Part shown: positions 3,889 to 25,133 of the stretch, in pieces
Numbering within the stretch: the first letter of the stretch is position 1
Layout of the letters: each line of letters opens with the position of its first letter
Assembly: GCA_029960065.1 (NCBI GenBank)
Contig: JASCOF010000001.1
Span: 62,001-126,000 of the forward strand
Source of the DNA: Flavobacteriaceae bacterium PS02336
GTDB taxonomy: Bacteria > Bacteroidota > Bacteroidia > Flavobacteriales > Flavobacteriaceae
Direction of reading: 5' to 3'
Length of the DNA stretch: 64,000 bases
Position numbers and translations under genes: made by a program
The notes under the pieces: model-generated
The model's input: the letters and a program-made list of their open reading frames with translations, nothing else
Databases searched by the model: none
Told to the model about the DNA's origin: nothing

Positions 3889-3950
3889 GAAAAAACAATT
3901 GATTAATTAGCGATTATTTTACAGATATAAGCAAAGACTATTTTTTTAAT

Positions 3951-4033
3951 CTCGCAAAGGCGCGGAGGCGCAAAGCTGTTTTCTTTTTTCTAAAATCTTT
4001 TAATAAAACTTCGCGACTTCGCGTCTTTGCGAG
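3951..4033. repeat. Imperfect inverted repeat, 'CGCAAAG' family
   Basis: Between anmK and the NagZ-AmiE gene, an arm beginning CTCGCAAAGGCGCGGAGGCG (from 3951) is answered by an arm ending GCGTCTTTGCGAG (to 4033). Related sequence occurs at 28173-28203 and 35632-35656, so this is a dispersed intergenic repeat. It could fold as an RNA hairpin between the two transcription units. Confidence 0.6.
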
Positions 4034-4082
4034 CAATTCTCTTTGACAAATAAATATATGTTTTTGTGCGATAAAGTTAACT

Positions 4083-7082: not shown

Positions 7083-7137
7083 GAAATCATTTTTTTAAGC
7101 ATTCAGACAAAAATTCTGAACTGCTTTATTTAGGCTT

Positions 7138-8643: not shown

Positions 8644-8667
8644 TTTGGTTTGAATTTAGAAATTAGG

Positions 8668-9489
8668 TTATTTTTTGCTGTTGTGATCTAACAAAACAGC
8701 GCGTACACTTTTATGTTTTTGCAGTAATTCTTCGGCTAAATCATATTCAATTCCCAATTCTTCCATAATCATTTTTATGCCTCGTTTTACTAGTTTTTCG
8801 TTAGACAACTGCATGTCGACCATTTTGTTGCCTTTTACTTTTCCAAGTTTAATCATCACTGAAGTTGAAATCATGTTCAAAGTCAGTTTTTGAGCTGTTC
8901 CAGCTTTCATTCTTGTACTTCCAGTTAAGAACTCGGGTCCAACAATTACTTCAATAGGATAATCAGCTTCTTGTGCTATAAGTCCGTTGCTGATGCACGA
9001 AATACTTCCTGTTTTGATATTATGTTCTTTCGCTTTTTTCAAAGCACCCAAAACATAAGGCGTATTTCCAGAAGCCGCAATTCCGATAATAAAATCTAAA
9101 CTTGAAATCTCAAATTTAGCTAAATCTTTCCAAGCTTGTTCGGTATCGTCTTCGGCATTTTCAACAGCTTTACGAATCGCAGTATCTCCGCCGGCAATTA
9201 TTCCAATAATCATATCATGCGGCACACCAAATGTTGGCGGACATTCAGAGGCATCTAAAATTCCGATACGCCCAGAAGTTCCAGCTCCAATATAAAATAA
9301 TCGGCCGCCCAATTGCATTTTTTTAACTATTGCTTTAACCAATTTTTCAATTTTAGGAATCTGTCCTTCGATAATCTGCGGTACTTTTTGATCTTCTGTA
9401 TTGATGTTGGTCAATAGTTCTTTCACGGTCATTTGATCCAAGTCTTTGTATAAAGATTCTTGTTCAGTTTCAGGATTTTTATTCTTCAT
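8668..9489 (-). CDS. murQ: N-acetylmuramic acid 6-phosphate etherase
   Basis: MurQ splits the lactyl ether of MurNAc-6-phosphate to GlcNAc-6-phosphate and D-lactate in the cytoplasm. The 273-residue protein has a SIS domain with GAGTSGRIGILDASEC (68-83) and SECPPTFG (81-88). Glu82 and Glu113 (in NAEDD) fall where the catalytic Glu83 and Glu114 of the E. coli enzyme lie. GIAASGNTPYVLGAL and GSTRMKAGTAQKLTLNM complete the signature. It is slightly shorter than the usual ~300 residues. It is followed at 24 bp by the symporter gene. Confidence 0.96.
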   Translation of the reverse strand: MKNKNPETEQESLYKDLDQMTVKELLTNINTEDQKVPQIIEGQIPKIEKLVKAIVKKMQLGGRLFYIGAGTSGRIGILDASECPPTFGVPHDMIIGIIAGGDTAIRKAVENAEDDTEQAWKDLAKFEISSLDFIIGIAASGNTPYVLGALKKAKEHNIKTGSISCISNGLIAQEADYPIEVIVGPEFLTGSTRMKAGTAQKLTLNMISTSVMIKLGKVKGNKMVDMQLSNEKLVKRGIKMIMEELGIEYDLAEELLQKHKSVRAVLLDHNSKK

Positions 9490-9620
9490 TTTTTTCTTTT
9501 TTTGGTTGAGAAATGGCAGATTTTCTTGGAATCTTTCATTTCGATAATTTATATAGGAAATCTCTATTTGTTAAAAAATAGAAAGTTTTGGGGTTTTTGG
9601 CGGGGAATGAAAAGTTTTAT

Positions 9621-10820
9621 TTAATACAATAAATAAGGTTTTCTCATGATTTGAAAAGCTTTTAAATCTTTTTTCCAGCTTTGGCGAATTTCTTTTTCAG
9701 AAACACCTGTTTCAATTTGCTGCTGTAATTTTTTTGTTCCTGCCAGTTTGGTAAAAAAGGCATTAAAAAATTTAGATTTGTCGCTGGTATTTTGATAGGC
9801 TTTTAAGAGCCATTTTAATTCTAATTGTTTGAGTTTTGGATATGACGTTAAATCTTCTCCAAAACATTCTTTTTCGTTATATAGCGGATCTTTGGCTCCA
9901 AAATTAGGTTTCGGCGTAAAACTGAAATTGGTTTTGGTTAAAAAAGGAGAACCATAAATTTGAAATTGCTTCTCCGTTCCGCGTCCCATACTTACATTTG
10001 TTCCTTCAAAAAGACATAAACTGGCGTACAGATTTATAGCTTGATCGTTTGGTAAATTGGGAGACGGTTTAACCAATAAACTGTATGCCATATTTCGGTT
10101 ATAATTCAAACACGGAATAACAGTTAGTTTGCACTGAGCTCCATCTTTAAGCCATTTTTGTCCGTTAATCATTTGAGCATATTCTCCAATTGTCATTCCG
10201 TGAAGGAGCGGAATAGGGTGCATGCCGACAAAGCTGGTAAATTCTTTTTCTAAAAGCGGACCGTCAACAATACTTCCATTCGGATTTGGTCTGTCTAAAA
10301 TGATAAGCGGGACATTATTTTCGGCGCAAGCCTCCATTACATAATGCAAAGAAGAAATATAAGTGTAAAAACGTGCTCCCACATCTTGTAAATCGAAAAT
10401 CATAATATCGATTCCGTTTAATTGTGCAGGTTTTGGTTTTTTATTATCTCCATAAAGAGAAATGATGGATAACCCTGTTTTTGGATCTTTTCCGTCAACG
10501 ATATGTTCTCCAGCATCAGCAGTTCCTCTAAAACCATGTTCTGGTGCAAAGATGGTTTGAACGGCAACTTTTTTCTCCAGTAAAAAATCAACTAAATGGG
10601 TTTTGTCAGATAGAATTCCCGTTTGATTGGTTACTATTCCTATTTTTTTGTCTTTTAAAAGTGGTAAATATTTCTCGTAATTATCTGCTCCAGTTTTTAT
10701 TGCCGGAGGATTAATTTTTGAAGTGCCGCAGTTTGTGTCTGTTGATAACGAATTCGAATACGTTGGCGTAATGAACAGAGAGGCTACAAGAAAAACAATT
10801 TTTGAGATGAATTTTATCAT
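9621..10820 (-). CDS. namZ: Exo-beta-N-acetylmuramidase NamZ (DUF1343, GH171), copy 1
   Basis: NamZ removes single MurNAc residues from the non-reducing end of glycan fragments, complementing NagZ. The 399-residue protein has a signal peptide (MIKFISKIVFLVASLFITPT) and family motifs VTNQTGI, TIFAPEHGFRGTADAGEH, MIFDLQDVGARFYTY, ILDRPNPNG, PSPNLPND, FEGTNVSMGRGTEKQFQ and GSPF. The Glu of PEHGFRG is a likely catalytic residue (family knowledge). It is strongly similar along its length to copy 2 (23988-25133). It lies between susD, from which a terminator separates it, and murQ (131 bp away). Confidence 0.93.
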   Translation of the reverse strand: MIKFISKIVFLVASLFITPTYSNSLSTDTNCGTSKINPPAIKTGADNYEKYLPLLKDKKIGIVTNQTGILSDKTHLVDFLLEKKVAVQTIFAPEHGFRGTADAGEHIVDGKDPKTGLSIISLYGDNKKPKPAQLNGIDIMIFDLQDVGARFYTYISSLHYVMEACAENNVPLIILDRPNPNGSIVDGPLLEKEFTSFVGMHPIPLLHGMTIGEYAQMINGQKWLKDGAQCKLTVIPCLNYNRNMAYSLLVKPSPNLPNDQAINLYASLCLFEGTNVSMGRGTEKQFQIYGSPFLTKTNFSFTPKPNFGAKDPLYNEKECFGEDLTSYPKLKQLELKWLLKAYQNTSDKSKFFNAFFTKLAGTKKLQQQIETGVSEKEIRQSWKKDLKAFQIMRKPYLLY

Positions 10821-10996
10821 TTTAAGTACAGTTAATAGTTAAAGGCAAAAAATGGACTAGTAAAATTAAATTATTATTTGATTGGTTGTTGTTTGTGATT
10901 GATGATGAGAAACAATTATCTGAAAATTTCAGATTTGGGCTTTAATTTTCGTCAGTTTTTTGTCTGTGCTATAAAGAGAGAAAAGAGATTTTTAAT

Positions 10997-11031
10997 AACT
11001 GCCTCTGTTTTGATTATTTCCAGAGGCAGTT
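10997..11031 (-). terminator. Hairpin terminator after susD
   Basis: AACTGCCTCTG (10997-11007) pairs perfectly with CAGAGGCAGTT (11021-11031), an 11-bp stem just past the susD stop. The T-run after it on the minus strand is weak, so some read-through into namZ is possible. Confidence 0.6.
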
Positions 11032-11065
11032 TATTATTTTAGGGCAAAGTTTATTTTATAATTGA

Positions 11066-12799
11066 TTACCAGCCAGGGTTTTGTTTTAATTCAACTCCTT
11101 GCGCTTTGTACAAATCAATATCGTTGGTAGGGATATTCATTAAATAATGTTTTGGTTCAAAATTTCTAGTACTTGCTGGATAAATTTTCACGTATCCATT
11201 CGCATCAACTTGTGTTTGTGAACCAACTGGAGTTCCAATTCTGGCTCCAAGATTTACATCAAGATTTTTAGAAGTATCTAAGTAATCGCCTTTTTTCCAA
11301 CGGTAAATATCTGCTTGTCTTAAAGTAGTCCAGCTCATAAATTCGATCTGACGCTCACGACGCACTTCCCAAATAATAGGACTTACAATTCCTGTAAGCT
11401 GCTCTAAAGAAGATGTTCTTCTTGGATCATTAATTTGAACACCGTTTGCCGAAGCATTTACACCATCTGTAGTTAAGGGAGCAATTCCTGCACGAGCACG
11501 TACTTTGTTAATTGAAAGATCAAGATCAGCATTTGTTGCATTTCCAAGTTCAGCACAAGCTTCAGCATAATTTAAATATACTTCACTTAAGGTAAATAAA
11601 GGTGCGTCAGTGTAGTTACGTCCTCCGGTTGTAACATCAGGACCTGTTGTTGCAGGATTATTGTATAATTCAAATACATATCCTGACATAGAAACCAAAG
11701 CTGCTGTACCGAAAGGTTTTCCTTTGTAGCCGTAATTGGCAGGGTTTACAGTTTTGCTGAAACGAGGATCTCTGTTCGTAAAAGTACTTGTAACAGTATT
11801 GTCACCAAGGTATTGAGCGTTTCCTGCTTGCTGAATAGGTAAGCCGTTTGTAGTAACATAACTGTCAGCAGCCCATTTTGTTAAACCATATTGAATAGTT
11901 GAAGTGTTTGTATAGTTTTGAAGAGAGTGCATTAATACGTTTGTTAAATAACGTTTCGCAAGAATAACTTCAGTGTTTCCTAGTAACTCAACTGAGTTGT
12001 AAAGCGATTTCCAATCTGCATTTAATTTGTAGCTTGGATTGTTCATGATTAATAATGAAGCTGCTTTAGCTTTATTTAAATAAGAACTTCCATCTTGATT
12101 TAAATGATATTTTCTGTAAGTTCCTTCGTAAAGACAAGCATTACTTAAAGCGGCATAAGCAGTGTATTTATTTACTGTAACATTTTTATCATCAGCAGTA
12201 AGCATTAAGTCGGCAGCTTCATTCAATTCAGCAATTACTTTGTCCATGATTTCAGCTCTTGGTTTTGCAGGAGCATAAACATCAGTATCTCCTTGCGCTA
12301 AAAATTTATCAGTGTACGGAACATCTCCGAATTTTTGAACCAAACGAAAGTAAGTATAAGCTCTGAAAAATTTAGCAACTCCAATGTAATGGTTCTTTTT
12401 TTCTTGCGGCATGTTTACATTTGGAACTTTTTCCAACATTAAATTGCAGCGGCGAATAAGGGTGTAATATTCATTCCACGAATAAACATTTGTAGTTGCT
12501 GCAGTAATTGGCATTTGATAAAATGTAAAAGCGGCTAAGTTGTCGTCTACTTTATAATCACTTCCATGATAATAGAAAAAGGAAAGTCCAATGGTTGTTC
12601 CGTTTCCATATCCGTAAAAAGTGTCATAGTTTAACCATGAAAATGTCTTTACGTTGTCTTCTGACTGCCAGAAGTTATCGTTTGTAAATTTATCTGCGGG
12701 ATCATCTGTTAGATAATCTGAACAGCTAACTGCACTTATTGAAGCTACTGTGGCAGCAAAAAACAGCAGAAATTTCGATTTTATATTTGATTTTTTCAT
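11066..12799 (-). CDS. SusD/RagB-family outer-membrane glycan-binding lipoprotein
   Basis: SusD proteins are surface lipoproteins that lid a SusC porin and capture glycan. This 577-residue protein has a lipoprotein signal (SAVSC, Cys26) followed by SDYLTDDPADKFTNDNFWQS, then the TPR-rich SusD body (YTLIRRCNLMLEKV, AYTYFRLVQKFGDVPYTD) and the C-terminal pattern SEVYLNYAEACAELG ... INKVRARAGI ... EVRRERQIEF. It lies 24 bp after susC. Because the surrounding genes all act on peptidoglycan, I infer that it binds muropeptides or glycan fragments. Confidence 0.95.
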   Translation of the reverse strand: MKKSNIKSKFLLFFAATVASISAVSCSDYLTDDPADKFTNDNFWQSEDNVKTFSWLNYDTFYGYGNGTTIGLSFFYYHGSDYKVDDNLAAFTFYQMPITAATTNVYSWNEYYTLIRRCNLMLEKVPNVNMPQEKKNHYIGVAKFFRAYTYFRLVQKFGDVPYTDKFLAQGDTDVYAPAKPRAEIMDKVIAELNEAADLMLTADDKNVTVNKYTAYAALSNACLYEGTYRKYHLNQDGSSYLNKAKAASLLIMNNPSYKLNADWKSLYNSVELLGNTEVILAKRYLTNVLMHSLQNYTNTSTIQYGLTKWAADSYVTTNGLPIQQAGNAQYLGDNTVTSTFTNRDPRFSKTVNPANYGYKGKPFGTAALVSMSGYVFELYNNPATTGPDVTTGGRNYTDAPLFTLSEVYLNYAEACAELGNATNADLDLSINKVRARAGIAPLTTDGVNASANGVQINDPRRTSSLEQLTGIVSPIIWEVRRERQIEFMSWTTLRQADIYRWKKGDYLDTSKNLDVNLGARIGTPVGSQTQVDANGYVKIYPASTRNFEPKHYLMNIPTNDIDLYKAQGVELKQNPGW

Positions 12800-12823
12800 T
12801 TTAAAAGTTTTGTATCGTTAGTA

Positions 12824-15800
12824 TTAGAAAGAAAGCTCAACACCAAAAGACCATGTTTTGGTATAAGGATAAGCTCTTCCCCAGAAAACTTCTGTCTCAT
12901 CAATTTCAGGATCAACAGGAAGGCGTTTATCTTTCCAAGTCAATAAGTTTTCACCTGAGGTATATAATCTTACTTTTTCTAATCCAGCTTTGCTTACTAA
13001 GTCTTTTGGAAGTGAATATCCAAGACTAAAGTTTTTAAGACGGAAATAAGACATGTCTAATAAATATCTTGTTTGAGTTACAAAGTTGTTTTGACCGGTT
13101 GTACTAGCTCCAAAAGTATTGGCTTCATTTCCATAATATGGGTTTGGCCAATAGGCTCCTGTATTCTCTGGTGTCCAGTAATCAGCTTGGTTTTCATACA
13201 TTTGCTGCGGTGCACGGAAAAAAGGTAGTACAGCATCTGATGATGCCCAGTAATCACGTTTCCCAACTCCTTGGAAGAACGCCGAAATATCAAAACCGCG
13301 ATATTTTCCTCCTAGTGTGATTCCGTATTTATAACGTGGTGTAGAGTTACCAATTTTTTGTAAATCACCATGGTCGTCAGCAGTTCCAGCGCCTCGAGTT
13401 ATAGCACCATCACCATCAACATCTATATAATGAACATCACCAGCTCCATATCTAAAGTTTCCTCCAATTGTTTTTGAATAATCAATACCATTAACTGTTT
13501 TTCCATTATTAGTTATAATATCATCAGCTTGAAGAAGTCGATCACTCGTTAATCCCCAAATTTGGCCAATTTCATATCCATCATAATAAGTAGTCAGCAA
13601 TTTTGAAGAGTTATTCCATTTAGTAACTACAGATTTGTAATCTGATAAAGCTAAATCAACAAAAACCGAAGCATTTTCGCTTAACTGCTTATTAAAGTTT
13701 AAAGCAAGTTCCCATCCTCTTGTTCTCATGTTTCCTGAGTTGGTTTGAGCAGCAGATTGGCCAAATGATCCAGGAAGTGTAATACCAGGAGCAAGCATTC
13801 CTTTAGTATCTCGCTGGTACCAGTCAAATGAAGCGCCCAGCATATCAAATATTCTAATGTCAATACCAACATCTTTAGTATATACTTTTTCCCAAGTTAA
13901 GGCTGGATCAACATTAGTTGGTAATCCAGTAGAAGGAGGTAAAGTACTTCCGCTATTTACCCATGAAGGATTTGCAGAGTTTAAAATTGATAAGAAAGCA
14001 TTGTTACCAACGTTTTGGTTTCCAATAGCTCCAATAGAGCCACGCAGTTTAAGATCGGTTAACCAGCTGCGCGTGTTTTCCATAAACTTTTCGTTTACAA
14101 TTTTATATCCAAAAGAAGCAGAAGGGAAGAATCCCCATTGTTCGTTTGTTGGAAATCTTGAAGAACCATCATAACGAGCATTCAATTCTAAAAGATAAAT
14201 TCCGTTGTAATCATAATTGATACGGCCAAAGAAACCAGCAATAGAATATTCAGTTTCTGCAGGATTAAGAGTACTGTTAGCAGATCCAGAAACAAATTGT
14301 TCTCCTACTGCAAGGTTAAATTCAGGTTTTGATTTGTCTAAAAGGGTATTTCTTCTTGCATAATTACGTGAGAAATTCTGCCATTCTGAGTTGAAACCAC
14401 CTAAGAATTTGAAATTATGATTTCCGAATTGTTTTTTATAGTTACCATAGATGTTGACAACATTAGTAACCGATTCTGATTTAGATTGTGCTACATAGTC
14501 ATTACCTGCTTCAAGAGTTGCAGGGGTAGCAGTTTGAATTGTAGTAGCATTGTATGGCATGGCAGACCAGCTGTCCCATGCTAAGAATTTACCACCATTT
14601 TGTTTTCTGTTGTAAGTTTCATTTACATTGCTGACTTCAACAATAAGATTTAAGTCTTTAGCAATATCTGCAGTAAGTTTTGCACTTAGCCTATTATTAC
14701 GTTTTACGTTTTCATTTCTCGAAGCATTTGAAATATATCCTCCAGCTGTACGGAAATTATATCCTCTATAAGTTCCAAAGTTTGGAAAATACTGTCCCCA
14801 ACGAAGCGCATAACCAAAGTAACCTCCGTAACCAGTATCATCTGTACCGGAACCGCCATAATAGTTAAATGGCTGATCATAGGTATTGTTGATCGTCATT
14901 ACTTTAAAATCTCCTGTAAGCCAGTCAGCTAATTTTGTGGTAAATCCTAAATTAATGTTGGTTCTTTGTCTTTCTTCTTGATTTACTCGCAGCATACCTT
15001 CTTGGTTGGTATAAGCAAAAGAAGCGAAGAAAGAACTCTTTTCCCCTAAATTACCTTGAGCAGAAATGTTATGTGTAGTTTGAAGAGCATCTTTTGCATA
15101 TAATTCCTTATTAGCATCCCACACTCTGTAGAAATAAGGCGTACCATTTCTAATTTCCCAGTCTTCACCATAAACCATTTCATGACTAGTACGATTATTT
15201 GCATATTTTGCTTTCCAGTTTTTAATTCCTTCAAGTAATATACTGTAGTTTTGACCAAAAATCTCCGGAGTAGAACCATCTGTACGTGTTCCTGCAGCAA
15301 TTAAACCAGGAATTTCATCTGTTGGATCTAAGAATTTTAACGTAGAAATTGGATTTACAAAAGCGGTATTGGCACTGTAAGAGAATCTTACTTTTCCTTC
15401 GCCTGTTTTACCTCCTTTAGTGGTAATAAGAACTACACCAAAAGCAGCACGAGCTCCATATATAGAAGCAGAAGCGGCATCTTTAAGAACTGACATTGTA
15501 GCAATATCATTTGGATTGATTAAAGCTAAATCTGTTGGAACCCCGTCTACTAATATTAAAGGAGCATCAGAACCATTGATAGTACCAGATCCACGTATAT
15601 TAATGTTTGCTGCACGGTTTATATTCCCTGAGTTAAAAGAAACATTTACTCCAGGTGTGGTTCCCTGCAATGCTTTACTAACATCTGTTAATGGTCTGCT
15701 TCCTATTGTTTTAGCGACATCAATTGAGGCAACCGCACCAGTTAAATTTGTTTTTTTCTGAGAAGAGAATCCTACTACAACAACTTCATCTAGTTTTGAA

Positions 15801-16090
15801 GTACTTTCTGTAAGACTGACATTAATTTTTTGCTGTCCATCTACTTTTATCACAGTAGTTTCATAACCCATGTAGCTAAAAGCTAGACTTTGACCTGACG
15901 AAATACTAATGCTGTAGTTTCCATCAAAATCGGTGGTTGTACCATTTGAAGTCCCCTGAATTAGGACACTAACTCCAGGGATAGGAATTCCGTCTGCTTT
16001 GTTTTTTACCGTTCCAGTGATCGTTTTTGTTTGTCCAAAAGATGCTTGAACGAACAAAACCAACAATGAAATAAGAAATAGTTTTTTCAT
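12824..16090 (-). CDS. SusC/RagA-family TonB-dependent outer-membrane transporter
   Basis: The 1088-residue protein starts at 16090 (MKKLFLISLLVLFVQASFGQ, a clean signal peptide). An in-frame extension to 16195 adds 35 residues with no signal character and overlaps the promoter, so I reject it. Domains in order: carboxypeptidase-D-like (GTVKNKADGIPIPGVSVLIQ), TonB plug (LDEVVVVGFSSQKKTNLTGA, NIRGSGTINGSDAPLILVDG), then a large beta-barrel ending in a terminal aromatic (FGVELSF). A minus-strand -7 box TATATTTG lies at 16122-16129 with probable DeoR operators upstream. Inferred substrate: oligomeric peptidoglycan fragments. Confidence 0.95.
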   Translation of the reverse strand: MKKLFLISLLVLFVQASFGQTKTITGTVKNKADGIPIPGVSVLIQGTSNGTTTDFDGNYSISISSGQSLAFSYMGYETTVIKVDGQQKINVSLTESTSKLDEVVVVGFSSQKKTNLTGAVASIDVAKTIGSRPLTDVSKALQGTTPGVNVSFNSGNINRAANINIRGSGTINGSDAPLILVDGVPTDLALINPNDIATMSVLKDAASASIYGARAAFGVVLITTKGGKTGEGKVRFSYSANTAFVNPISTLKFLDPTDEIPGLIAAGTRTDGSTPEIFGQNYSILLEGIKNWKAKYANNRTSHEMVYGEDWEIRNGTPYFYRVWDANKELYAKDALQTTHNISAQGNLGEKSSFFASFAYTNQEGMLRVNQEERQRTNINLGFTTKLADWLTGDFKVMTINNTYDQPFNYYGGSGTDDTGYGGYFGYALRWGQYFPNFGTYRGYNFRTAGGYISNASRNENVKRNNRLSAKLTADIAKDLNLIVEVSNVNETYNRKQNGGKFLAWDSWSAMPYNATTIQTATPATLEAGNDYVAQSKSESVTNVVNIYGNYKKQFGNHNFKFLGGFNSEWQNFSRNYARRNTLLDKSKPEFNLAVGEQFVSGSANSTLNPAETEYSIAGFFGRINYDYNGIYLLELNARYDGSSRFPTNEQWGFFPSASFGYKIVNEKFMENTRSWLTDLKLRGSIGAIGNQNVGNNAFLSILNSANPSWVNSGSTLPPSTGLPTNVDPALTWEKVYTKDVGIDIRIFDMLGASFDWYQRDTKGMLAPGITLPGSFGQSAAQTNSGNMRTRGWELALNFNKQLSENASVFVDLALSDYKSVVTKWNNSSKLLTTYYDGYEIGQIWGLTSDRLLQADDIITNNGKTVNGIDYSKTIGGNFRYGAGDVHYIDVDGDGAITRGAGTADDHGDLQKIGNSTPRYKYGITLGGKYRGFDISAFFQGVGKRDYWASSDAVLPFFRAPQQMYENQADYWTPENTGAYWPNPYYGNEANTFGASTTGQNNFVTQTRYLLDMSYFRLKNFSLGYSLPKDLVSKAGLEKVRLYTSGENLLTWKDKRLPVDPEIDETEVFWGRAYPYTKTWSFGVELSF

Positions 16091-16121: not shown

Positions 16122-16129
16122 CAAATATA
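16122..16129 (-). promoter_or_regulatory. susC -7 promoter box (TATATTTG)
   Basis: The minus strand reads TATATTTG, a match to the Bacteroidota -7 consensus TAnnTTTG, 32 bp before the chosen susC start. A TTG lies 15 bp upstream, slightly closer than the usual -33 spacing. Confidence 0.65.
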
Positions 16130-16138
16130 TTTATTTAT

Positions 16139-16152
16139 TGCATACAAATGCA
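16139..16152. promoter_or_regulatory. Palindrome TGCATACAAATGCA upstream of susC -7 box
   Basis: TGCAT and ATGCA flank a 4-bp centre immediately upstream of the susC -7 box. Each arm resembles the ...ATGCA half-site seen in the neighbouring repeat arrays, so this may be another regulator site placed to block or recruit polymerase at susC. Confidence 0.45.
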
Positions 16153-16185
16153 TTTTATTTGTTAATATTTTTAAAAAATCTTCTA

Positions 16186-16204
16186 AATAACGCAAAATAA
16201 CGCA
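16186..16204. promoter_or_regulatory. Probable DeoR operator: two AATAACGCA half-sites 10 bp apart
   Basis: AATAACGCA occurs at 16186-16194 and again at 16196-16204, exactly one helical turn apart, 57 bp upstream of the susC -7 box. The same word recurs at 17151-17159 and, reversed, at 17125-17133, upstream of the esterase gene. Tandem half-sites of this kind are common for DeoR-family regulators. Confidence 0.6.
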
Positions 16205-16246
16205 TTTTTTAAGTCTGTTATTTTTCTGTTTTTATTTTTTTAGTTA

Positions 16247-16265
16247 AAACATGCAAACTAATGCA
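16247..16265. promoter_or_regulatory. Probable DeoR operator: AAACATGCA and ACTAATGCA, 10 bp apart
   Basis: Two degenerate half-sites ending in ATGCA lie at 16247-16255 and 16257-16265, upstream of the deoR -7 box (16306-16313). Spacing and core match the AATAACGCA pair, which suggests autoregulation. Confidence 0.5.
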
Positions 16266-16305
16266 TATATTAAAAGTGCTTTTCGATTTCAATAAAATTA
16301 TTTGA

Positions 16306-16313
16306 TATATTTG
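16306..16313 (+). promoter_or_regulatory. deoR -7 promoter box (TATATTTG)
   Basis: A perfect TAnnTTTG match 24 bp before the regulator start codon, giving a very short leader. Confidence 0.6.
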
Positions 16314-16337
16314 TCGGAAACTTAAACTTTTAATACA

Positions 16338-17087
16338 ATGCTGAAAGCCGAAAGACATAAATACATCATGAGTAAACTTGTTGAAGAACAGAAAGTTGTT
16401 ACAACTGATTTGGCTTTGGCTCTAGATTTGTCTGAAGATACAATTAGGAGAGATTTAAACGAATTGGATAGTAAAAAGCTCTTAGAGAAGGTTTACGGAG
16501 GCGCAGTTCAAGTTTCAGAAAATGCTGCCGATGTTTTTAATATCAGCATATCAGATGAAGACGAGAAGAAAAAGATAGTTGCAAAAGCATTGTCTCTGCT
16601 TCATGATGATCAGGTCATTATAATGAGTGGAGGAAGCACTAATCTAGTTTTTGCAAAATTAATTCCAGCTAATTTAAAAGCTACAATCTACACTTACAGT
16701 CTTCCTATAGCAATGCAGTTGTCACAGCATCCTAATATTGATTTAATCTTTATTGGAGGTAAAATGCAGAAAAATGCAATGGTAACAATAGGTATGGATG
16801 TAATTCAGGTGGTTTCTAAAATCAAAGCCGATATCTGTTTTATAGGTGCCAGCAGTATAAACGTAAAACAAGGGCTGACAGAGATTGGATACGAAATTTC
16901 AATTGTTAAAAAAGCAATGATAGAAGCTTCTGATAGAGTGGTTTCAATGTTTTCTTCGGATAAATTGAACACAAAAATGCCTCATGTAGTTTGCGATTTA
17001 AAACAATTGGATACTATTGTTACTAATTTAGATCCAGAGGATTCTAGTCTTGAGGACTATAGAAAATCTGGCGTAATTATACTTTAA
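16338..17087 (+). CDS. DeoR-family transcriptional regulator, likely regulator of the peptidoglycan-salvage locus
   Basis: The 249-residue protein has an N-terminal HTH (residues ~1-58: ERHKYIMSKLVEEQKVVTTD, then SEDTIRRDLNELDSK, the DeoR signature) and a C-terminal DeoR sensor domain related to ISOCOT folds (IIMSGGSTNLVFAKLIP, DICFIGASSINVKQGLTEIG). DeoR proteins usually sense a phosphorylated sugar; here MurNAc-6-P or GlcNAc-6-P is a reasonable guess. The gene diverges from susC and precedes the plus-strand arm. Its own promoter, the susC promoter and the esterase promoter share half-site arrays. Confidence 0.93.
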   Translation: MLKAERHKYIMSKLVEEQKVVTTDLALALDLSEDTIRRDLNELDSKKLLEKVYGGAVQVSENAADVFNISISDEDEKKKIVAKALSLLHDDQVIIMSGGSTNLVFAKLIPANLKATIYTYSLPIAMQLSQHPNIDLIFIGGKMQKNAMVTIGMDVIQVVSKIKADICFIGASSINVKQGLTEIGYEISIVKKAMIEASDRVVSMFSSDKLNTKMPHVVCDLKQLDTIVTNLDPEDSSLEDYRKSGVIIL

Positions 17088-17114
17088 AATAATAAAAGCC
17101 TTTTAGTTTTTTTT

Positions 17115-17169
17115 TGCATGTTTTTGCGTTATTTGCGTTTTATTTTGTTAAATAACGCAAAATAATGTA
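17115..17169. promoter_or_regulatory. Five-half-site operator array upstream of the esterase operon
   Basis: Three half-sites in one orientation (TGCATGTTT 17115-17123, TGCGTTATT 17125-17133, TGCGTTTTA 17134-17142) face two in the other (AATAACGCA 17151-17159, AATAATGTA 17161-17169), mostly 10 bp apart. The array ends 18 bp before a -7 box TATATTTG at 17188-17195. It is the densest copy of the putative DeoR sites. Confidence 0.65.
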
Positions 17170-17187
17170 TTTGATTTGTTTTTTGTA

Positions 17188-17195
17188 TATATTTG
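17188..17195 (+). promoter_or_regulatory. Esterase-gene -7 promoter box (TATATTTG)
   Basis: TAnnTTTG match 31 bp before the start codon at 17227, directly downstream of the half-site array. Confidence 0.6.
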
Positions 17196-18515: not shown

Positions 18516-19997
18516 ATGAAAATCCTAAAAATCATAATCCTAATAGTGCTCTTTCAAACGAAACTTTTCAGTCAGGAATCACCAAAAAGAGAAATGCGTG
18601 CAGCGTGGATTTCGACTGTAGACAATATCGACTGGCCATCAAAACCAGGATTGTCAGATAAACAGATGAAAGCTGAAATGATTTCTATTTTGGATAATTT
18701 ACGATCTAATAATTTGAACACCGTAATTTTCCAAATTCGCCCGACTGCCGATGCGTATTACAAATCGACAAAAGAACCGGCATCACATTGGATTACAGGA
18801 ACTCAAGGTGTAGCTCCGGGATTTGATCCGCTGCAAATGATGATTGACGAAGCTGGAAAAAAAGGAATGAATGTCCATGTGTGGTTAAATCCGTATAGAG
18901 TACAAAAAGATACCGTAAAAGATGTATTGACTAAATCGCATTTGTATTTTAAGAAACCAGAATTGTTTTTAACGTACGGAAAATCAAGATATTTTAATCC
19001 AGGTTATAAAGAAACCAGAGATTTCGTTTCATCTGTAGTAGGAGAAATAGTTCGAAATTATGATATTCAAGCCGTTCATATGGATGATTATTTTTATCCG
19101 TATAAAATCGCTGGACAAGAATTTCCAGATGAAAAAGCTTTCGCTAAAGAACCGCGTCAGTTTAAAGACAAAGACGATTGGAGAAGAGATAATGTTGATT
19201 TAATCATCAAACAAATCAGAGATACTATTATTGCTAATAAACCAGAAGTCGAGTTCGGAATTTCACCTTTTGGTGTTTGGCGAAATATTGCTAAAGATTC
19301 AGAAGGTTCTAATACCGTGGCAGGTGCAACCAATTATGACGATTTGTATGCTAATATTTTAAAATGGCAAAAGGAAAACTGGATCGATTATGTAACACCG
19401 CAATTGTATTGGCATATAGGTTTTGACAGAGCCAATTTTGAAGTTTTGGCAAAATGGTGGGCAGCGCACAAATACGGAGCAAATGTTTATGTTGGCCACG
19501 GCGATTATAAGATTTCAAATACTGCCAAAGAACCAGAGTGGAGAAGTCCAGATCAAATTGTAAAACAAATCGAAATGATTCGTAAAATACCTCAAATAGA
19601 CGGTTCGATGCATTTTACAGCAAATTCATTCTTTAAAAAAGGCGATACTTTACGAAATCCGCTTATTCAAAAACCATATAAATACATTGCTTTAACGCCT
19701 GAAGCAAACAGAATTACAAGAATAAAACCAAATGCTCCGACAAATGCTGTAATTGCTAAAAAAGGAGATAAAGCTGTTTTGAGCTGGAAAGCTGAATTAT
19801 ACGATAAGAAATATGTCATTTATAAATTTCCGAAAGGAAAAATAACTGATTTCTCTAATTCAGCGAATATTTATTACGTGACAACAGCAACAAAATTAGA
19901 AGTTCCAAACGCTGATTTGGATAATTATATTTACGCCATTTCTGCTTTAAGTCAGACCCAGACAGAAAGCGCTCCCGTAGAATTTGCAACAAAATAA
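18516..19997 (+). CDS. DigH-like GHL10 family glycosylhydrolase, second copy
   Basis: This 493-residue protein has a signal peptide (MKILKIIILIVLFQTKLFSQ), then MRAAWISTVDNIDWPSKPG and the GHL10 barrel (~25-390) with FQIRPTADAYYKS, VHMDDYFYPY, FGISPFGVWRNI and DYVTPQLYW. A C-terminal fibronectin-like segment follows (~405-493). It is homologous to the gene at 1-1265. DigH of the same family acts on peptidoglycan strands lacking peptides. It heads a tight run with the GH20 gene (14 bp gap), the AmiE-like gene and namZ copy 2. Confidence 0.88.
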   Translation: MKILKIIILIVLFQTKLFSQESPKREMRAAWISTVDNIDWPSKPGLSDKQMKAEMISILDNLRSNNLNTVIFQIRPTADAYYKSTKEPASHWITGTQGVAPGFDPLQMMIDEAGKKGMNVHVWLNPYRVQKDTVKDVLTKSHLYFKKPELFLTYGKSRYFNPGYKETRDFVSSVVGEIVRNYDIQAVHMDDYFYPYKIAGQEFPDEKAFAKEPRQFKDKDDWRRDNVDLIIKQIRDTIIANKPEVEFGISPFGVWRNIAKDSEGSNTVAGATNYDDLYANILKWQKENWIDYVTPQLYWHIGFDRANFEVLAKWWAAHKYGANVYVGHGDYKISNTAKEPEWRSPDQIVKQIEMIRKIPQIDGSMHFTANSFFKKGDTLRNPLIQKPYKYIALTPEANRITRIKPNAPTNAVIAKKGDKAVLSWKAELYDKKYVIYKFPKGKITDFSNSANIYYVTTATKLEVPNADLDNYIYAISALSQTQTESAPVEFATK

Positions 19998-20010
19998 AAA
20001 GATAAAAGCC

Positions 20011-22515
20011 ATGAGAAAAATTATTTTACTAATTGCCATTTTTCTAAGTTCTTTAAGTTGTCTACAGGCACAGCAACTAGATATAATTCCGAAACCAGTT
20101 AAGATTGAGCAAAAAGAGGGAACATTTAGTATTCCGTCATCGGTACAAATTATTGTAGACAAAAAAGTTGCAAAAAGTACTGATTATATAAAGACTTCTT
20201 TTTCAAAATATACAGGAATTAGTCCAGTTGTTTCTATCGGAAATAAACATAAAAAAAACACCATTGCCTTTTTAGTAGATGAAAAAATGAACGTTCCAAA
20301 TGATGGTTATAAATTGATCATCAACAAAAAAGGAATTCTCATAAAAGGAAAATCTTCAAATGGTGTTTTAAACGGTTTGCAGACTTTATTACAGATTTCT
20401 TCAGCAAAAGAGGTTAAAAAAGGAAAAGTTCCGTTTGTAAAAATAGAAGATTATCCGCGCTTTGAATGGCGCGGTATGATGCTCGATTGCTCCAGACAGT
20501 TTTTTGATAAACAAACTGTTCTGAATTATATCGACTGGCTTGCAGCGCATAAAATGAATGTTTTTCATTGGCATTTAACCGATGATAATGGCTGGAGAGC
20601 CGAAATCAAATCAATGCCAGATTTAACTTCAAAAGGAGCTTGGAGAGGACCTGGAGAAGTTTTATTACCATCTTACGGATCTGGAGATAAACGTTACGGC
20701 GGATTTTATACGCAGGCCGATATGAAAGAAGTAGTGGCATATGCATCGGCTCGTGGTATCTCTGTTATGCCTGAAATTGAAATTCCAGGACACTCACGCG
20801 CGGTAACGGCTTCGTATCCAGAAGTTGGCTGTGCGATAACACAGGAACTCAAAAGTGTTCAGGGAGAAGTAAAAAATGTTTGGTGTGTGGGACGTGAAGA
20901 AAACTACCAAATTTTAGATTCGATTATCAGGGAATTTTCAGAAATATTTCCGTTTGAATATATTCATGTTGCAGGAGACGAAGTTAATCGTGCCAACTGG
21001 GAGCATTGCCCAAAATGTCAGGCTTTGATGGCGAAAGAAGGTTTTACAGATAGTTTTCAGCTTCAGAATTATTTCTTTAAAAGAGTTCAAAAAATCGTAG
21101 ATAAATACCATAAAAAGACGAACGGTTGGAATGAAATTTTGAAAGGTGGAGAAATAAACCCAAACACTTTAATTTCTGCATGGCAGGGCATTAGTTACGG
21201 AATTGAATCGGCTAAAAAAGGATATGAAACCATAATGATGCCAGGACAATATCTATATTTTGATATGGCACAATCTGATACTGAAAGAGGGCATCGCTGG
21301 GCGGCTATTACAGATACCAAAAGAGCGTATTCGTTTGAGCCAATTCCCAATGATGATTTGACGCCAGAACAGCAAAAATTGATAAAAGGAGTTCAAGGTG
21401 CTTTATGGAGTGAATATTTAGATCGTCCGGCACGAATTATGGAATATCAAAGTTATCCAAGAATCAGCGCTTTGTCTGAAATTGGATGGTCTCAAAAAGA
21501 AGATAAAAACTGGGATGATTTCTACGGAAGATTAACGCACAGCCATTTACAACGTTTGGCTAATATGGGAATTGCTTTTAGAGATTTTCCGCCAACAGCA
21601 ATTTATCAAAAAGGAATAATTACCGTAACGCCCCCTTATGAAGGTGCAGTTGTACGTTATGATGCGCAAGGAAACGAACCAACAAGGCAATCGCTTTTGT
21701 ATACAAAACCAATTCAAACAAAAGATTACGAACAATATACTTTCCGTACATTTTTTAATGAAGATGTGGCGAGCCCAGCAGTAAAAGCAGAAAAATTGCC
21801 TGTTGCCAATTGGAATACTTCAAAAGTGGAAATTTTAAATATTTCAGAAAATATTTCAGAACATGTAGAGAAAAACGGTATTTGGTACTTAACTTTTAAT
21901 CCAACAACAGACGGAAGTGCAAACGGTGTTATTAGAACGGTTTCACTTTTTGAGAATGACAAATTAATTCAACGTTTTCCTGAAGAAAGAACATTGAAAT
22001 CAAAACCTCGTTTGCGATTTGTAATTGAAAATTATAACGAAAAAAACACCTATCGTTTAGATTTTACGGTTGAAAATAAAGAAGCAAAAGAATCCTCTGC
22101 AAAAGTAAATTTCAATTGTTCGCCGTATTTAGAGCCAGAAGTAAAAGTGACTTCTTCGATGGCTGAAAATCCTAAATTTCCAATTTCAACTTTAGAAGAC
22201 TATAATGCCGAAACCTATCTGCGTACAGATGTTGCATGTGCAAGTGGTGATTGGATTTTATACACTTTCACAAATCCTGTAACAACTTCTAAAATTGATG
22301 TGTTAACCGGAATTCCGCATCACCCGAGATTCATTGTGAATAATGGTTATGTAGAATATTCGTATAACGGAATTGATTTCGTAAAAGGAGATGCTTTTGA
22401 TTACGGAAATGCATCAATCTATCCAAAACAACCGGTAAAAGCAGTAAGAATTAGTATTACTGGAACAAATAACGAGCCTCTTATGGCAGCGCAGGACTTA
22501 AGAATTAATCCATAA
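20011..22515 (+). CDS. GH20 beta-N-acetylhexosaminidase with C-terminal discoidin-like domain
   Basis: GH20 enzymes remove terminal beta-GlcNAc/GalNAc by substrate-assisted catalysis. I place the start at 20011 (MRKIILLIAIFLSSLSCLQA, signal peptide); a TTG further upstream overlaps the preceding gene and adds no signal. The 834-residue protein has the GH20b N-terminal domain (~22-145), the barrel (WRGMMLDCSRQFF, FHWHLTDDNGWR, PEIEIPGHSRA) and the catalytic Asp-Glu pair in HVAGDEV (Asp323-Glu324). The last ~140 residues look like an F5/8-type carbohydrate-binding fold. It probably trims GlcNAc from glycan fragments in the periplasm or on the surface. Confidence 0.93.
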   Translation: MRKIILLIAIFLSSLSCLQAQQLDIIPKPVKIEQKEGTFSIPSSVQIIVDKKVAKSTDYIKTSFSKYTGISPVVSIGNKHKKNTIAFLVDEKMNVPNDGYKLIINKKGILIKGKSSNGVLNGLQTLLQISSAKEVKKGKVPFVKIEDYPRFEWRGMMLDCSRQFFDKQTVLNYIDWLAAHKMNVFHWHLTDDNGWRAEIKSMPDLTSKGAWRGPGEVLLPSYGSGDKRYGGFYTQADMKEVVAYASARGISVMPEIEIPGHSRAVTASYPEVGCAITQELKSVQGEVKNVWCVGREENYQILDSIIREFSEIFPFEYIHVAGDEVNRANWEHCPKCQALMAKEGFTDSFQLQNYFFKRVQKIVDKYHKKTNGWNEILKGGEINPNTLISAWQGISYGIESAKKGYETIMMPGQYLYFDMAQSDTERGHRWAAITDTKRAYSFEPIPNDDLTPEQQKLIKGVQGALWSEYLDRPARIMEYQSYPRISALSEIGWSQKEDKNWDDFYGRLTHSHLQRLANMGIAFRDFPPTAIYQKGIITVTPPYEGAVVRYDAQGNEPTRQSLLYTKPIQTKDYEQYTFRTFFNEDVASPAVKAEKLPVANWNTSKVEILNISENISEHVEKNGIWYLTFNPTTDGSANGVIRTVSLFENDKLIQRFPEERTLKSKPRLRFVIENYNEKNTYRLDFTVENKEAKESSAKVNFNCSPYLEPEVKVTSSMAENPKFPISTLEDYNAETYLRTDVACASGDWILYTFTNPVTTSKIDVLTGIPHHPRFIVNNGYVEYSYNGIDFVKGDAFDYGNASIYPKQPVKAVRISITGTNNEPLMAAQDLRINP

Positions 22516-22519
22516 GAAT

Positions 22520-23824
22520 ATGAAAAATATTGGTGCTAAAATTATCATTGCTTCTTTGATTTTTTTCGGAGCAAATTGCTATTCGCAGAAAAACTCAAAA
22601 CAATTTCCTGATTTAAAACAGAATGAAGTTTTCATCGATTCGATGATGACAAATGCGCTGGAAAAAGGTTTTTTTCCAGGAGCACAAATTATCGTTGGCA
22701 CAGGAGATTTTAATCTGATATCTAAAAACTATGGTTATCATGATTATACTAAAAAGCAATTAGTAAAAACAGAAGATGTTTTTGATCTGGCTTCGATGTC
22801 TAAAGTTTTAGGAGCAACGCTTGTAACAATGCGTTTGGTTGGAGATGGAAAAATCAAACTTACAGATCAAGTGGGTGAAATTGTTCCGTTTTATAAAAAC
22901 ACAGCTATTTCCAATTTAACGCTTTTTGAACTGTTAACGCATACTTCTGGATTAACACCGAGTATCACTTTTTATCAGGCACTGCTTTCTACACCAGATA
23001 ATTCGCCTTTGTTGAGCAATCAAAAATCGGAACAATATCCTGAGCAGTTTGATAATATGTACGTGAATAAAAACATTGTTTACGATTCTAAATATCTCAT
23101 TTTTGAGCCAAAACAAAATTGGGTTCAGATTTATAAAAACATGTGGCTGAATCCAGAATTTTACGCATCAGTTTATGAAAGAATTGCGAAGGCGAATAAA
23201 AATCCGAGAGGAAAATATTTGTACAGCGATTTGAATTTACTTTTGGTGAAGCAAATGATTGAAACCAAAACAGGAAAGAAATTAGATCAGCTGACAAATG
23301 AAATTTATACCGAATTAGGCATTTCAAAAATTGGATATAATCCGCTAAAATGGACTTCTATTGATAATGTAATGCCAACCGAAGTAGATAATTTTTTTAG
23401 AAAAGATACCATTAAAGGATATGTTCACGATGAAGCGGCGGCGATTTTTGGTGGCGTTTCTGGAAATGCTGGTTTGTTTGCCAACGCAGAATCGATTGCC
23501 GTAATCTGTAAAATGCTAATGAACAACGGAAATTATAAAGGAAAACAAATTCTGAAAGCAAAAGTGGTGAAAGAGTTTACAGAATCTCCGCTTGCAAAAG
23601 AAGGTATTTATAGAGGTTTAGGTTTTGATAAAAGAAAACCAGATGAGTTTTTTACAAAAGATGATTTTGGACATACGGGTTTTACGGGAACATTTTTCTT
23701 TATGAATAGGGATACAAATCGATTTTTAATTATTCTGACCAATCGAGTAAATCCAACAAGAACAAACAGATTAATGTATAAAGATGATTTTAGCGCCAAA
23801 ATTTGGAAGCAAATCAATAATTAA
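22520..23824 (+). CDS. AmiE-like serine hydrolase (class C beta-lactamase fold), probable MurNAc-L-Ala amidase
   Basis: The 434-residue protein starts 4 bp after the GH20 stop and has a signal peptide ending near CYSQ. Active-site motifs are SMSK (Ser92-Lys95), YSD in KYLYSDLNL, and HTGFTG. It resembles the C-terminal half of the 4083-7082 fusion, sharing ATEVDNF-like, GYVHD-AAA and RGLGFDKR blocks. In B. subtilis the AmiE amidase of this fold strips stem peptide from MurNAc and is encoded beside nagZ and namZ, the same neighbourhood as here. Penicillin resistance is not suggested. Confidence 0.85.
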   Translation: MKNIGAKIIIASLIFFGANCYSQKNSKQFPDLKQNEVFIDSMMTNALEKGFFPGAQIIVGTGDFNLISKNYGYHDYTKKQLVKTEDVFDLASMSKVLGATLVTMRLVGDGKIKLTDQVGEIVPFYKNTAISNLTLFELLTHTSGLTPSITFYQALLSTPDNSPLLSNQKSEQYPEQFDNMYVNKNIVYDSKYLIFEPKQNWVQIYKNMWLNPEFYASVYERIAKANKNPRGKYLYSDLNLLLVKQMIETKTGKKLDQLTNEIYTELGISKIGYNPLKWTSIDNVMPTEVDNFFRKDTIKGYVHDEAAAIFGGVSGNAGLFANAESIAVICKMLMNNGNYKGKQILKAKVVKEFTESPLAKEGIYRGLGFDKRKPDEFFTKDDFGHTGFTGTFFFMNRDTNRFLIILTNRVNPTRTNRLMYKDDFSAKIWKQINN

Positions 23825-23828
23825 ACGA

Positions 23829-23970
23829 TAGCCACAGATTAAAAGGATTTTTTTGGTTTGACATAAAATCTAAAATTTTTTCTCGCAGATTCAGCAGATA
23901 ATTTTTAAAAATAAAATCTCCTAAATCTGCGAGAGGCAAAAATCATTTTTAATCCTGTCAATCTGTGGCA
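23829..23970. repeat. Inverted repeat of the 'CCACAGATTAAAAGGATT' family
   Basis: GCCACAGATTAAAAGGATT near 23829 is answered by AATCCTGTCAATCTGTGGC ending near 23970, filling most of the gap between the AmiE-like gene and namZ copy 2. Inside it, CTCGCAGATTCAGCAGAT faces CTGCGAG. Other copies occur at 28219-28457, 29737 and 39974-40039. Confidence 0.65.
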
Positions 23971-23987
23971 AGAAAAAAACAAACCGT

Positions 23988-25133
23988 ATGAAAAAACTAA
24001 TTATTTGCATATTAATCACAACAATATCTTTTGCGCAGCAAATAAAAACAGGAGCTGAAAATTACACAGCGTATTTGCCTTTAATAGAAGGTAAAAGTGT
24101 TGGTGTTGTAACCAATCAAACCGGAATTATAGATGAGAAAACGCATTTGGTTGATTTTTTAGCATCAAAAAATATCAAAATCAAAACGATTTTCGCTCCG
24201 GAACACGGTTTTAGAGGAACTGCTGATGCCGGTGAACATGTATCTGATGAAATCGACGCAAAAACAGGTTTGTCGATTACTTCGCTTTATGGTAAAAACA
24301 ACAAACCAACTCCAGAACAATTGAAAAACATTGATGTCATGATTTTTGATCTGCAGGATGTTGGAACAAGATTATATACTTACGTTTCTACCATGCACAG
24401 AATTATGGAAGCTTGTGCAGAGAATAATGTTCCGCTGATTGTACTAGATCGCCCAAATCCAAATATTGCAATTGTCGACGGTCCAGTTTTGGATATTGCT
24501 TTTCAAAGCGGTATTGGAATGCATCGAACGCCTTTGCTTCACGGAATGACTTTGGGTGAAGAAGCGAAAATGATAAATGGTCAAAAATGGTTAAAAAATG
24601 GGATACAATGCAAGCTGACGGTTATTCCGTGTTTGAATTATAACCGAAAAATGAATTATAGTCTGCCTGTTCGTCCTTCGCCAAATTTACCAAACGACCA
24701 ATCGGTTAATTTATATGTGAGTTTATGTCTTTTTGAAGGAACGAATGTAAGCATGGGAAGAGGAACAGAAAAACAATTCCAGATTTATGGTTCGCCTTAT
24801 CTGCCAAAAAGCAATTTTGCTTTTACTCCAAAACCTAATTTTGGAGACAAAGATCCTTTGTATAATGGCGTGGAATGCAATGGAGAAGATTTGTCTTCCA
24901 TTCCGAGAATCAATCGATTGGAAATAAAATGGCTAATCAAAGCCTATCAAACCACTGCGGATAAATCCAAATTTTTCGACAAAAGAAAGTTTTCTATCAG
25001 AGCAGGAAATGAAAAATTACAGCAGCAGATTGAAGCTGGAGTTTCTGAAGAAGAAATTAGAAAAAGCTGGGAAAAGGATTTACAAACTTTCAAAAAAATG
25101 CGAAAGGAATATTTGATTTACAAAAATGCCTAA
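23988..25133 (+). CDS. namZ: Exo-beta-N-acetylmuramidase NamZ (DUF1343, GH171), copy 2
   Basis: The 381-residue protein has a short signal peptide (MKKLIICILITTISFAQ) and all NamZ motifs of copy 1: VTNQTGIIDEKTHLVDFL, APEHGFRGTADAGEH, MIFDLQDVGTRLYTY, VLDRPNPN, PSPNLPND and FEGTNVSMGRGTEKQFQ. The two copies look well over half identical by eye and are collinear to the last helix. It closes the plus-strand arm. Two NamZ proteins could differ in location, chain length or preference for peptide-bearing ends. Confidence 0.93.
   Translation: MKKLIICILITTISFAQQIKTGAENYTAYLPLIEGKSVGVVTNQTGIIDEKTHLVDFLASKNIKIKTIFAPEHGFRGTADAGEHVSDEIDAKTGLSITSLYGKNNKPTPEQLKNIDVMIFDLQDVGTRLYTYVSTMHRIMEACAENNVPLIVLDRPNPNIAIVDGPVLDIAFQSGIGMHRTPLLHGMTLGEEAKMINGQKWLKNGIQCKLTVIPCLNYNRKMNYSLPVRPSPNLPNDQSVNLYVSLCLFEGTNVSMGRGTEKQFQIYGSPYLPKSNFAFTPKPNFGDKDPLYNGVECNGEDLSSIPRINRLEIKWLIKAYQTTADKSKFFDKRKFSIRAGNEKLQQQIEAGVSEEEIRKSWEKDLQTFKKMRKEYLIYKNA

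Follow-up and report, generated by a model that had tools for sequence, protein, structure and literature searches.

Helix-phased tandem half-sites as candidate operators of a DeoR-family regulator in a peptidoglycan-sugar utilisation cluster

Introduction

In murQ operons, the MurQ-dependent use of MurNAc is controlled by MurR, an RpiR-type regulator, and NagB acts after MurQ on the route from MurNAc-6-P. The deoxyribose operon repressor DeoR, for its part, works through long-range looping operators. The top matches of our literature search, which took in a minority of subscription journals and regulon databases, included no DeoR-family MurNAc regulator in Bacteroidota.

Tandem operators have been described for the DeoR family. 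The motifs predicted for the DeoR-family regulator RhaR consist of two imperfect direct repeats with 10–11 bp periodicity and a group-specific sequence (PMC3870299). A DeoR-family site with tandem structure has been reported as well, and the same survey took DeoR-family sites for repressor sites from their location in 5' UTRs or across promoters (PMC8579813). In SorC-family DeoR and CggR of Bacillus subtilis, a dimer of dimers is joined through the effector domains and the tetramers occupy one side of the operator, which is 45 bp long for CggR (PMC11229326).

The locus described here resembles that of RhaR in having a DeoR-family regulator of a sugar pathway and tandem 10–11 bp repeats, and thus fits an operator kind that has already been described (PMC3870299). 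It differs in the half-site, TGC[G/A]TT[A/T]TT, in the pathway, which is that of amino sugar and muramic acid, and in the words that face each other with helix-phased spacing at the cluster promoters. The likeness to MurR would be the control of MurQ-dependent MurNAc use, with the difference that a DeoR-type protein would exert it here. The SorC-family proteins belong to a different family from the HTH_DeoR and DeoRC protein of this locus and serve as an analogy only (PMC11229326).

Gene content of the locus

The window, by which we mean the whole 64,000-nucleotide stretch analysed (G000:C11:62001-126000, from a genome of 5.8 Mb that by its gene content we take to be that of a Flavobacterium-like Bacteroidota), holds a gene set for muramic-acid and peptidoglycan-sugar catabolism (Table 1). 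The MurNAc-6-P etherase and associated enzymes are present in the cluster, as in a MurNAc catabolic regulon. In an NCBIfam scan, the cluster MurQ (TIGR00274) and AnmK (NF007149) scored over their curated cut-offs, and the NagX-like protein did not reach its own. The GH3 glycosidase of the minus-strand cluster is fused to a beta-lactamase-like domain, and an FAD-linked oxidase gene also lies on the plus strand of the window cluster. Two NamZ exo-muramidase genes flank deoR (9621-10820 and 23988-25133). SusC and SusD are presumed identities, the first being the name used in an earlier sequence-only reading of this DNA.

The regulator has an N-terminal HTH_DeoR domain (PF08220, 52.6 bits against a cut-off of 21) and a C-terminal DeoRC sensor domain (PF00455, 127 bits against 31.8). 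None of the 10 NCBIfam DeoR-family models scanned (GlpR, SrlR, UlaR, AgaR, DeoR, YgbI and others) reached its cut-off; the best was GlpR (NF041397, 142.1 bits against 300), and the model for the repressor DeoR gave 92.5 against 244. Among solved sequences, a match with an E value of 0.001 or less was obtained only for 7l6l (residues 75-238, E 9.8e-11), a deoxyribose operon repressor that we take to be E. coli DeoR. Two DeoR paralogs are encoded in the same genome, on C36 (39% identity) and C33 (33%). The C36 gene (G000:C36:248944-249690, L061) has a different upstream word, TTGCAATATATTGCAA.

Table 1. Features of the deoR locus and their positions in the window.
Feature	Position	Strand	Evidence or remark
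Divergent cluster: SusC, SusD, NamZ, MurQ, sodium/solute symporter, GH3 + beta-lactamase-like, AnmK, NagX-like protein	2683..16090	-	
susC -7-like box TATATTTG	16122..16129	-	similar in ortholog alignment
Half-site-like words TGCATACAA (16139-16147) and TGCATTTTA (16149-16157), 10 bp apart, susC promoter-proximal	16139..16157	+	ortholog alignment
Tandem pair TGCGTTATT-T-TGCGTTATT on the susC side, words repeating at 10 bp	16186..16204	-	words, pair statistics, orthologs
Weak pair TGCATTAGT-T-TGCATGTTT before deoR, candidate autoregulatory site	16247..16265	-	low conservation rank
deoR -7-like box TATATTTG	16306..16313	+	
deoR, 249 aa DeoR-family regulator, HTH_DeoR + DeoRC sensor	16338..17087	+	Pfam
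Possible intragenic pair inside deoR	16760..16778	-	recurs in relatives; largely explained by coded KMQKNA
Left tandem pair TGCATGTTT-T-TGCGTTATT of array behind deoR	17115..17133	+	words at 17115, 17125
Right tandem pair AATAACGCA (17151), AATAATGTA (17161) of array behind deoR, facing left pair	17151..17169	-	
Esterase -7-like box TATATTTG	17188..17195	+	
Putative esterase, adjoins array behind deoR in this genome	17227..18120	+	PF00756
GHL10, GH20, beta-lactamase-like, second NamZ, downstream of esterase	18516..25133	+	Pfam

Half-site arrays in the window

The sequence-only reading had proposed half-site arrays upstream of three genes, those for SusC, DeoR and the esterase, and the words that it named are all present. 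Half-sites of the consensus TGC[G/A]TT[A/T]TT stand in pairs at 10 bp before each of the three genes. On the susC side the pair, which reads AATAACGCA at 16186-16194 and 16196-16204, was confirmed, but two further half-site-like words had been missed there; relative to the susC -7 box, the starts of TGCATACAA and TGCATTTTA are 10 and 20 bp upstream, and the start of TGCATTTTA is 37 bp from the word at 16186, where most orthologs have 36. In the array behind deoR the inner words are 26 bp apart, start to start, and the right pair ends 19 bp before the esterase -7 box. A fifth esterase-side half-site, TGCGTTTTA at 17134, had been counted in this array but is not conserved in relatives, and the pair before deoR, though present, is the weakest and least conserved of all.

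Each array had been placed upstream of a -7 box, and TATATTTG was indeed found at all three promoters, with 8 occurrences of the 8-mer on the two strands of the window. No TTTG or TTG element was found 17–23 bp before these boxes, the expected spacing of a -33 element, and sigma-70-type promoters occurred at shuffle level (6 found against 6.8 expected).

Single words were at chance frequency in the window. TGCRTTATT was found 6 times against 3.1 expected, a count reached by 9 of 100 shuffles, and TGCGTTATT with one mismatch was found 20 times against 24.7 expected. The 10-bp pair with at most three mismatches, by contrast, occupies three places where 0.05 were expected, and none of the 100 shuffles reached three. 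Within the window, the concern that the words might occur at random held for the single words and not for the pair.

A motif scan of the complete genome, as the same reading had suggested, placed the best pairs in the deoR locus. The degenerate pair with at most three mismatches was found at 57 places, compared with 39 for a reversed control; both places with 0 or 1 mismatch and three of the seven with at most two are in the deoR locus, as are the top four matches of the pair profile. Because the best pair and profile matches are confined to the locus, the clear sites in this genome are local. A genome-wide regulon in this genome was rejected beyond the locus, the remaining matches being weak and no trans target being found.

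The possible intragenic pair covers Ala147, whose codon is GCA in 22 of 28 orthologs and ranks 11 of 160 columns in a codon-bias test. The protein sequence explains most of this preference, and the pair is therefore listed as a possible site only.

Conservation and geometry of the arrays

We defined orthologs by at least 60% identity and found one in 28 of the 121 sampled genus genomes, the genome of the window included; together with 7 orthologs outside the half-site matrix, these 28 genus loci make up 35 ortholog loci. L001 was dropped as it repeats the window. These 28 loci themselves supplied the words, picked for likeness, that went into the half-site matrix and the profile, so that matches in those loci arise by construction, and counts over related loci are not independent.

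Direct 10 bp pairs were present on the susC side in 22 and behind deoR in 18 of the 28 loci. Words facing each other recurred at few distances: 36 bp in 17 and 46 bp in 15 loci on the susC side, and 36 bp in 15 and 26 bp in 13 loci behind deoR, whereas no single distance occurred in more than two loci in a control of 200 shuffles. Over all 35 ortholog loci, the susC-side pair scored at least 19 at 10 bp in 34 and 18.0 in the remaining one; a score of at least 19 was reached in 0 of 35 loci at each of the spacings 7, 8, 9 and 11–14, and in 0 of 3500 mononucleotide shuffles.

This conservation shows the putative operator unit to be a tandem pair of such half-sites 10 bp apart, and the direct repeats upstream of the local targets have the 10–11 bp period of RhaR-like tandem operators. 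The GC cores of the facing words are 32, 42 and 52 bp apart, or 3.05, 4.0 and 4.95 turns for a helical repeat of 10.5 bp. As these distances are near whole turns, facing words at 26, 36 or 46 bp by their geometry put the cores on one face of the helix. The earlier suggestion that the spacing points to a multimer binding one DNA face is supported, as regards the single face, by both the pairs kept at 10 bp and this helical phasing.

In 15 close loci the half-sites were on average better conserved than their surroundings (0.87 against 0.76 and 0.89 against 0.75 outside), with some half-sites that do not stand out. For the deoR-promoter pair in the same 15 loci, 120 and 101 of 202 nine-base windows were equally or more conserved, and autoregulation through this weak pair is uncertain.

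The gene behind deoR and the link to MurQ

SusC is divergent from deoR in all 35 ortholog loci. The gene behind deoR changes: in the 28 genus loci its product is an FAD-linked oxidase (10 loci), a NagB/PIG-L fusion (9), the esterase (4), a GH3 protein from a convergent gene (2) or an unrecognised protein (3). Over the 35 loci, the array behind deoR was kept in 31 of the 33 where the neighbour is not convergent and in neither of the two where it is; sorted by neighbour, it was kept with the esterase in 4/4, the oxidase in 11/12, NagB in 11/11 and others in 5/6. In L017 and L255 the array is missing although the neighbour is not convergent.

The one NagB protein scanned reached 267.8 bits for TIGR00502, above the cut-off of 236.9. 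The FAD-oxidase contains FAD_binding_4, FAD-oxidase_C and Fe-S domains and stays below all listed NCBIfam cut-offs; it may take the D-lactate released by MurQ.

MurQ was present in 120 of the 121 genus genomes; in the main it is a copy that does not follow deoR and has 58–68% identity to the one in the cluster. The genome of the window has this genus-wide copy (G000:C11:477153-477935) in addition to the cluster copy (window 8668-9489). A second, cluster-type MurQ of about 70% identity or more was found in 28 genomes, pieces in G017 counted, and co-occurs with deoR in 27 genomes with one exception each way: G046 (300 contigs) has this MurQ without deoR and G070 (190 contigs) has deoR without it, both being fragmented assemblies. 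All 12 deoR neighbourhoods examined at 20 kb contained MurQ, one of them a fragmentary one. Among the effectors proposed for the regulator, MurNAc-6-P would fit the gene content best. A fragment of a second deoR copy with one in-frame stop was also seen in G070 (G070:C139:3551-3958).

Sites at unlinked genes

For a search beyond the locus, the pair profile R1 was aligned from 61 of the 72 distinct pair sequences, after 11 that were weak or nearly repeated another had been set aside by eye, and was run over 27 ortholog-carrying relatives and 26 of 93 sampled genomes without an ortholog. The best match reached at least 20 bits in 25 of the 27 carriers and in none of the 26 others, but as the profile was trained on carrier loci, only the unlinked matches amount to a fair test. 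In the two exceptional carriers, G102 and G120, the top matches (19.5 bits) were at a response-regulator gene and the deoR loci themselves scored weaker.

Unlinked matches were found at genes for class-C GHL10 proteins. All seven of the unlinked genes (G042, G063, G006, G045, G015, G116 and G098) have an upstream pair of at least 23, the eighth class-C gene (G044) lies inside the cluster behind susC and susD, and all eight genomes carry deoR. A T9SS sorting tail on both of the two class-C proteins scanned makes it probable that these proteins are secreted. Among the matches listed, the other GHL10 classes had a pair of at least 19 within 1.5 kb in 0 of 30 loci; class-C-like genes (36–37% identity) in G051 and G031, both without an ortholog, had no pair of at least 17, and no class-C gene was found in the genome of the window at the threshold used. 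The second SusC-like loci of G095, G098 and G070 have pairs too. This recurrence before unlinked genes of related function lends comparative support to the shared candidate DeoR operator put forward in the sequence-only reading.

Some details of these loci may be recorded here. The trans pair of G045 overlaps a 111-aa frame, predicted ahead of the GHL10 gene, in which it is wholly contained; we took this frame as a chance one. The class-C genes of G042, G063 and G006 (L135, L136 and L137) are preceded by two or three pairs, 260–314 bp apart, far enough for the DNA between them to loop. The GHL10 gene at G116:C2:317255-319075 has one in-frame stop.

The beginning of a 149-aa response-regulator gene (PF00072) also matches R1; this match was rejected as a site and taken as coding conservation that occurs with and without an ortholog (L140, L141, L143-L147, L149, L151, L152, L130, L131, L155-L157, L159, L167 and L168). 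Among the matches listed, it was the top match in G102, G120 and 6 of 20 ortholog-less loci, and this coding coincidence sets the noise level of the pair profile.

Distant homologues

Searches for more distant proteins matched 22 of 299 genomes of the family at 1e-60 and 28 of 395 genomes of the phylum at 1e-50. We considered 44 distant homologues (37–53% identity), namely the matches with complete returned loci, several of which come from one genome in seven cases; L225 and L233, at contig ends, were excluded. At a pair score of 12, the 10 bp spacing was found in 18 of them and any other spacing from 3 to 30 in at most 7. The count was 17 at 10 bp against 6 at a score of 15, and at 18 the lead shrank to 8 at 10 bp against 5 at 21 bp; by the half-site matrix, 26 of the 44 had no 10 bp pair. 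A peptidoglycan-sugar gene (MurQ, NamZ, AnmK, GH3, NagX-like, symporter or GHL10) lay within 1.5 kb in 18 of the 44 loci, 22 others were near SusC or SusD, and 4 were near neither. These data suggest a phylum-wide group of muramic-acid DeoR regulators, of which the matrix fits fewer than half.

Proposed function and competing explanations

In our view the adjacent DeoR-family protein probably uses the arrays as its operators and represses a cluster for the utilisation of peptidoglycan sugar (muramic acid). DeoR would most likely bind as a tetramer or as a dimer of dimers. At susC and at the esterase gene, the closest words lie about 10–30 bp ahead of the -7 box, within the stretch that polymerase would occupy, so that bound DeoR should block initiation. 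The effector would be a phosphorylated intermediate, most likely MurNAc-6-phosphate, whose binding to the DeoRC domain would free the DNA. In relatives, the same candidate operator also stands before NagB, the FAD-linked oxidase and an unlinked secreted-type GHL10 gene.

Position relative to the promoter is also what might speak for DeoR binding these sites as an activator or dual regulator. The strong susC pair precedes the -7 box by 57 bp, which could suit an activator too, and the absence of a -33 element at 17–23 bp agrees with such a role. However, the promoter-proximal words on the susC side and the esterase-side pair would be under polymerase, and DeoR-family sites have been read as repressor sites by their position (PMC8579813). 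Activation or dual regulation is an unlikely reading, if the best placed of the alternatives.

Slightly less likely again is that the arrays belong to some other regulator, such as either of the DeoR paralogs in this genome, and that the neighbouring DeoR is coincidental. Besides the existence of these paralogs, a paralog locus of an ortholog-less relative (L030) has TGCGTTATT and TGCATTATT, 20 bp apart. Yet none of the 26 ortholog-less genomes, 10 of them with a paralog at an E value of 1e-30 or less, gave a match of at least 20 bits to the carrier-trained profile; the C36 paralog is preceded by its own, different word, and the arrays lie on both sides of deoR, all of which argues for the neighbouring DeoR as binder.

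The inverted words behind deoR could in principle reflect RNA pairing, in a hairpin or deoR terminator, and the facing arms at window 17121-17163 do fold better than 200 shuffles (z -3.39), with A-T replacing G-C at the fourth base in two loci. No terminator-like site was called, however; over 22 loci, including at least 4 that are poorly placed, pairing is kept in 211 of 286 stem cells, and the seventh base of the half-site is A-A or T-T in 14 loci with a restoring T-A in none. The same pairs occur upstream of genes on the susC side and at the trans GHL10 sites. We rejected the hairpin as the main reading of this array on the pairing counts and regard it as very improbable. Chance in an AT-rich intergenic region combined with promoter conservation can be dismissed almost entirely, since pair spacing and facing distances are far above shuffles and pairs recur at unlinked genes, even though single words are at chance and the 15 close loci show fair intergenic conservation beyond the sites as well (0.75–0.76).

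Significance

One may go on to a broader proposal, for and against which we see equal weight: that a clade of Bacteroidota DeoR proteins is a dedicated muramic-acid sensor in control of SusCD-type peptidoglycan-utilisation loci, with one tetramer reading facing tandem half-site pairs at integral helix-turn spacing, with the array fixed while its target is swapped (esterase, NagB or FAD-oxidase), and with a secreted glycosidase controlled in trans. The helix-phased, multi-site design offers a way into the question of how DeoR multimers recognise DNA, and the ortholog loci form a natural series in which the operator stays in place while the adjoining gene changes. For the use of peptidoglycan sugars in Bacteroidota, the locus provides a testable operator code and a candidate regulator.
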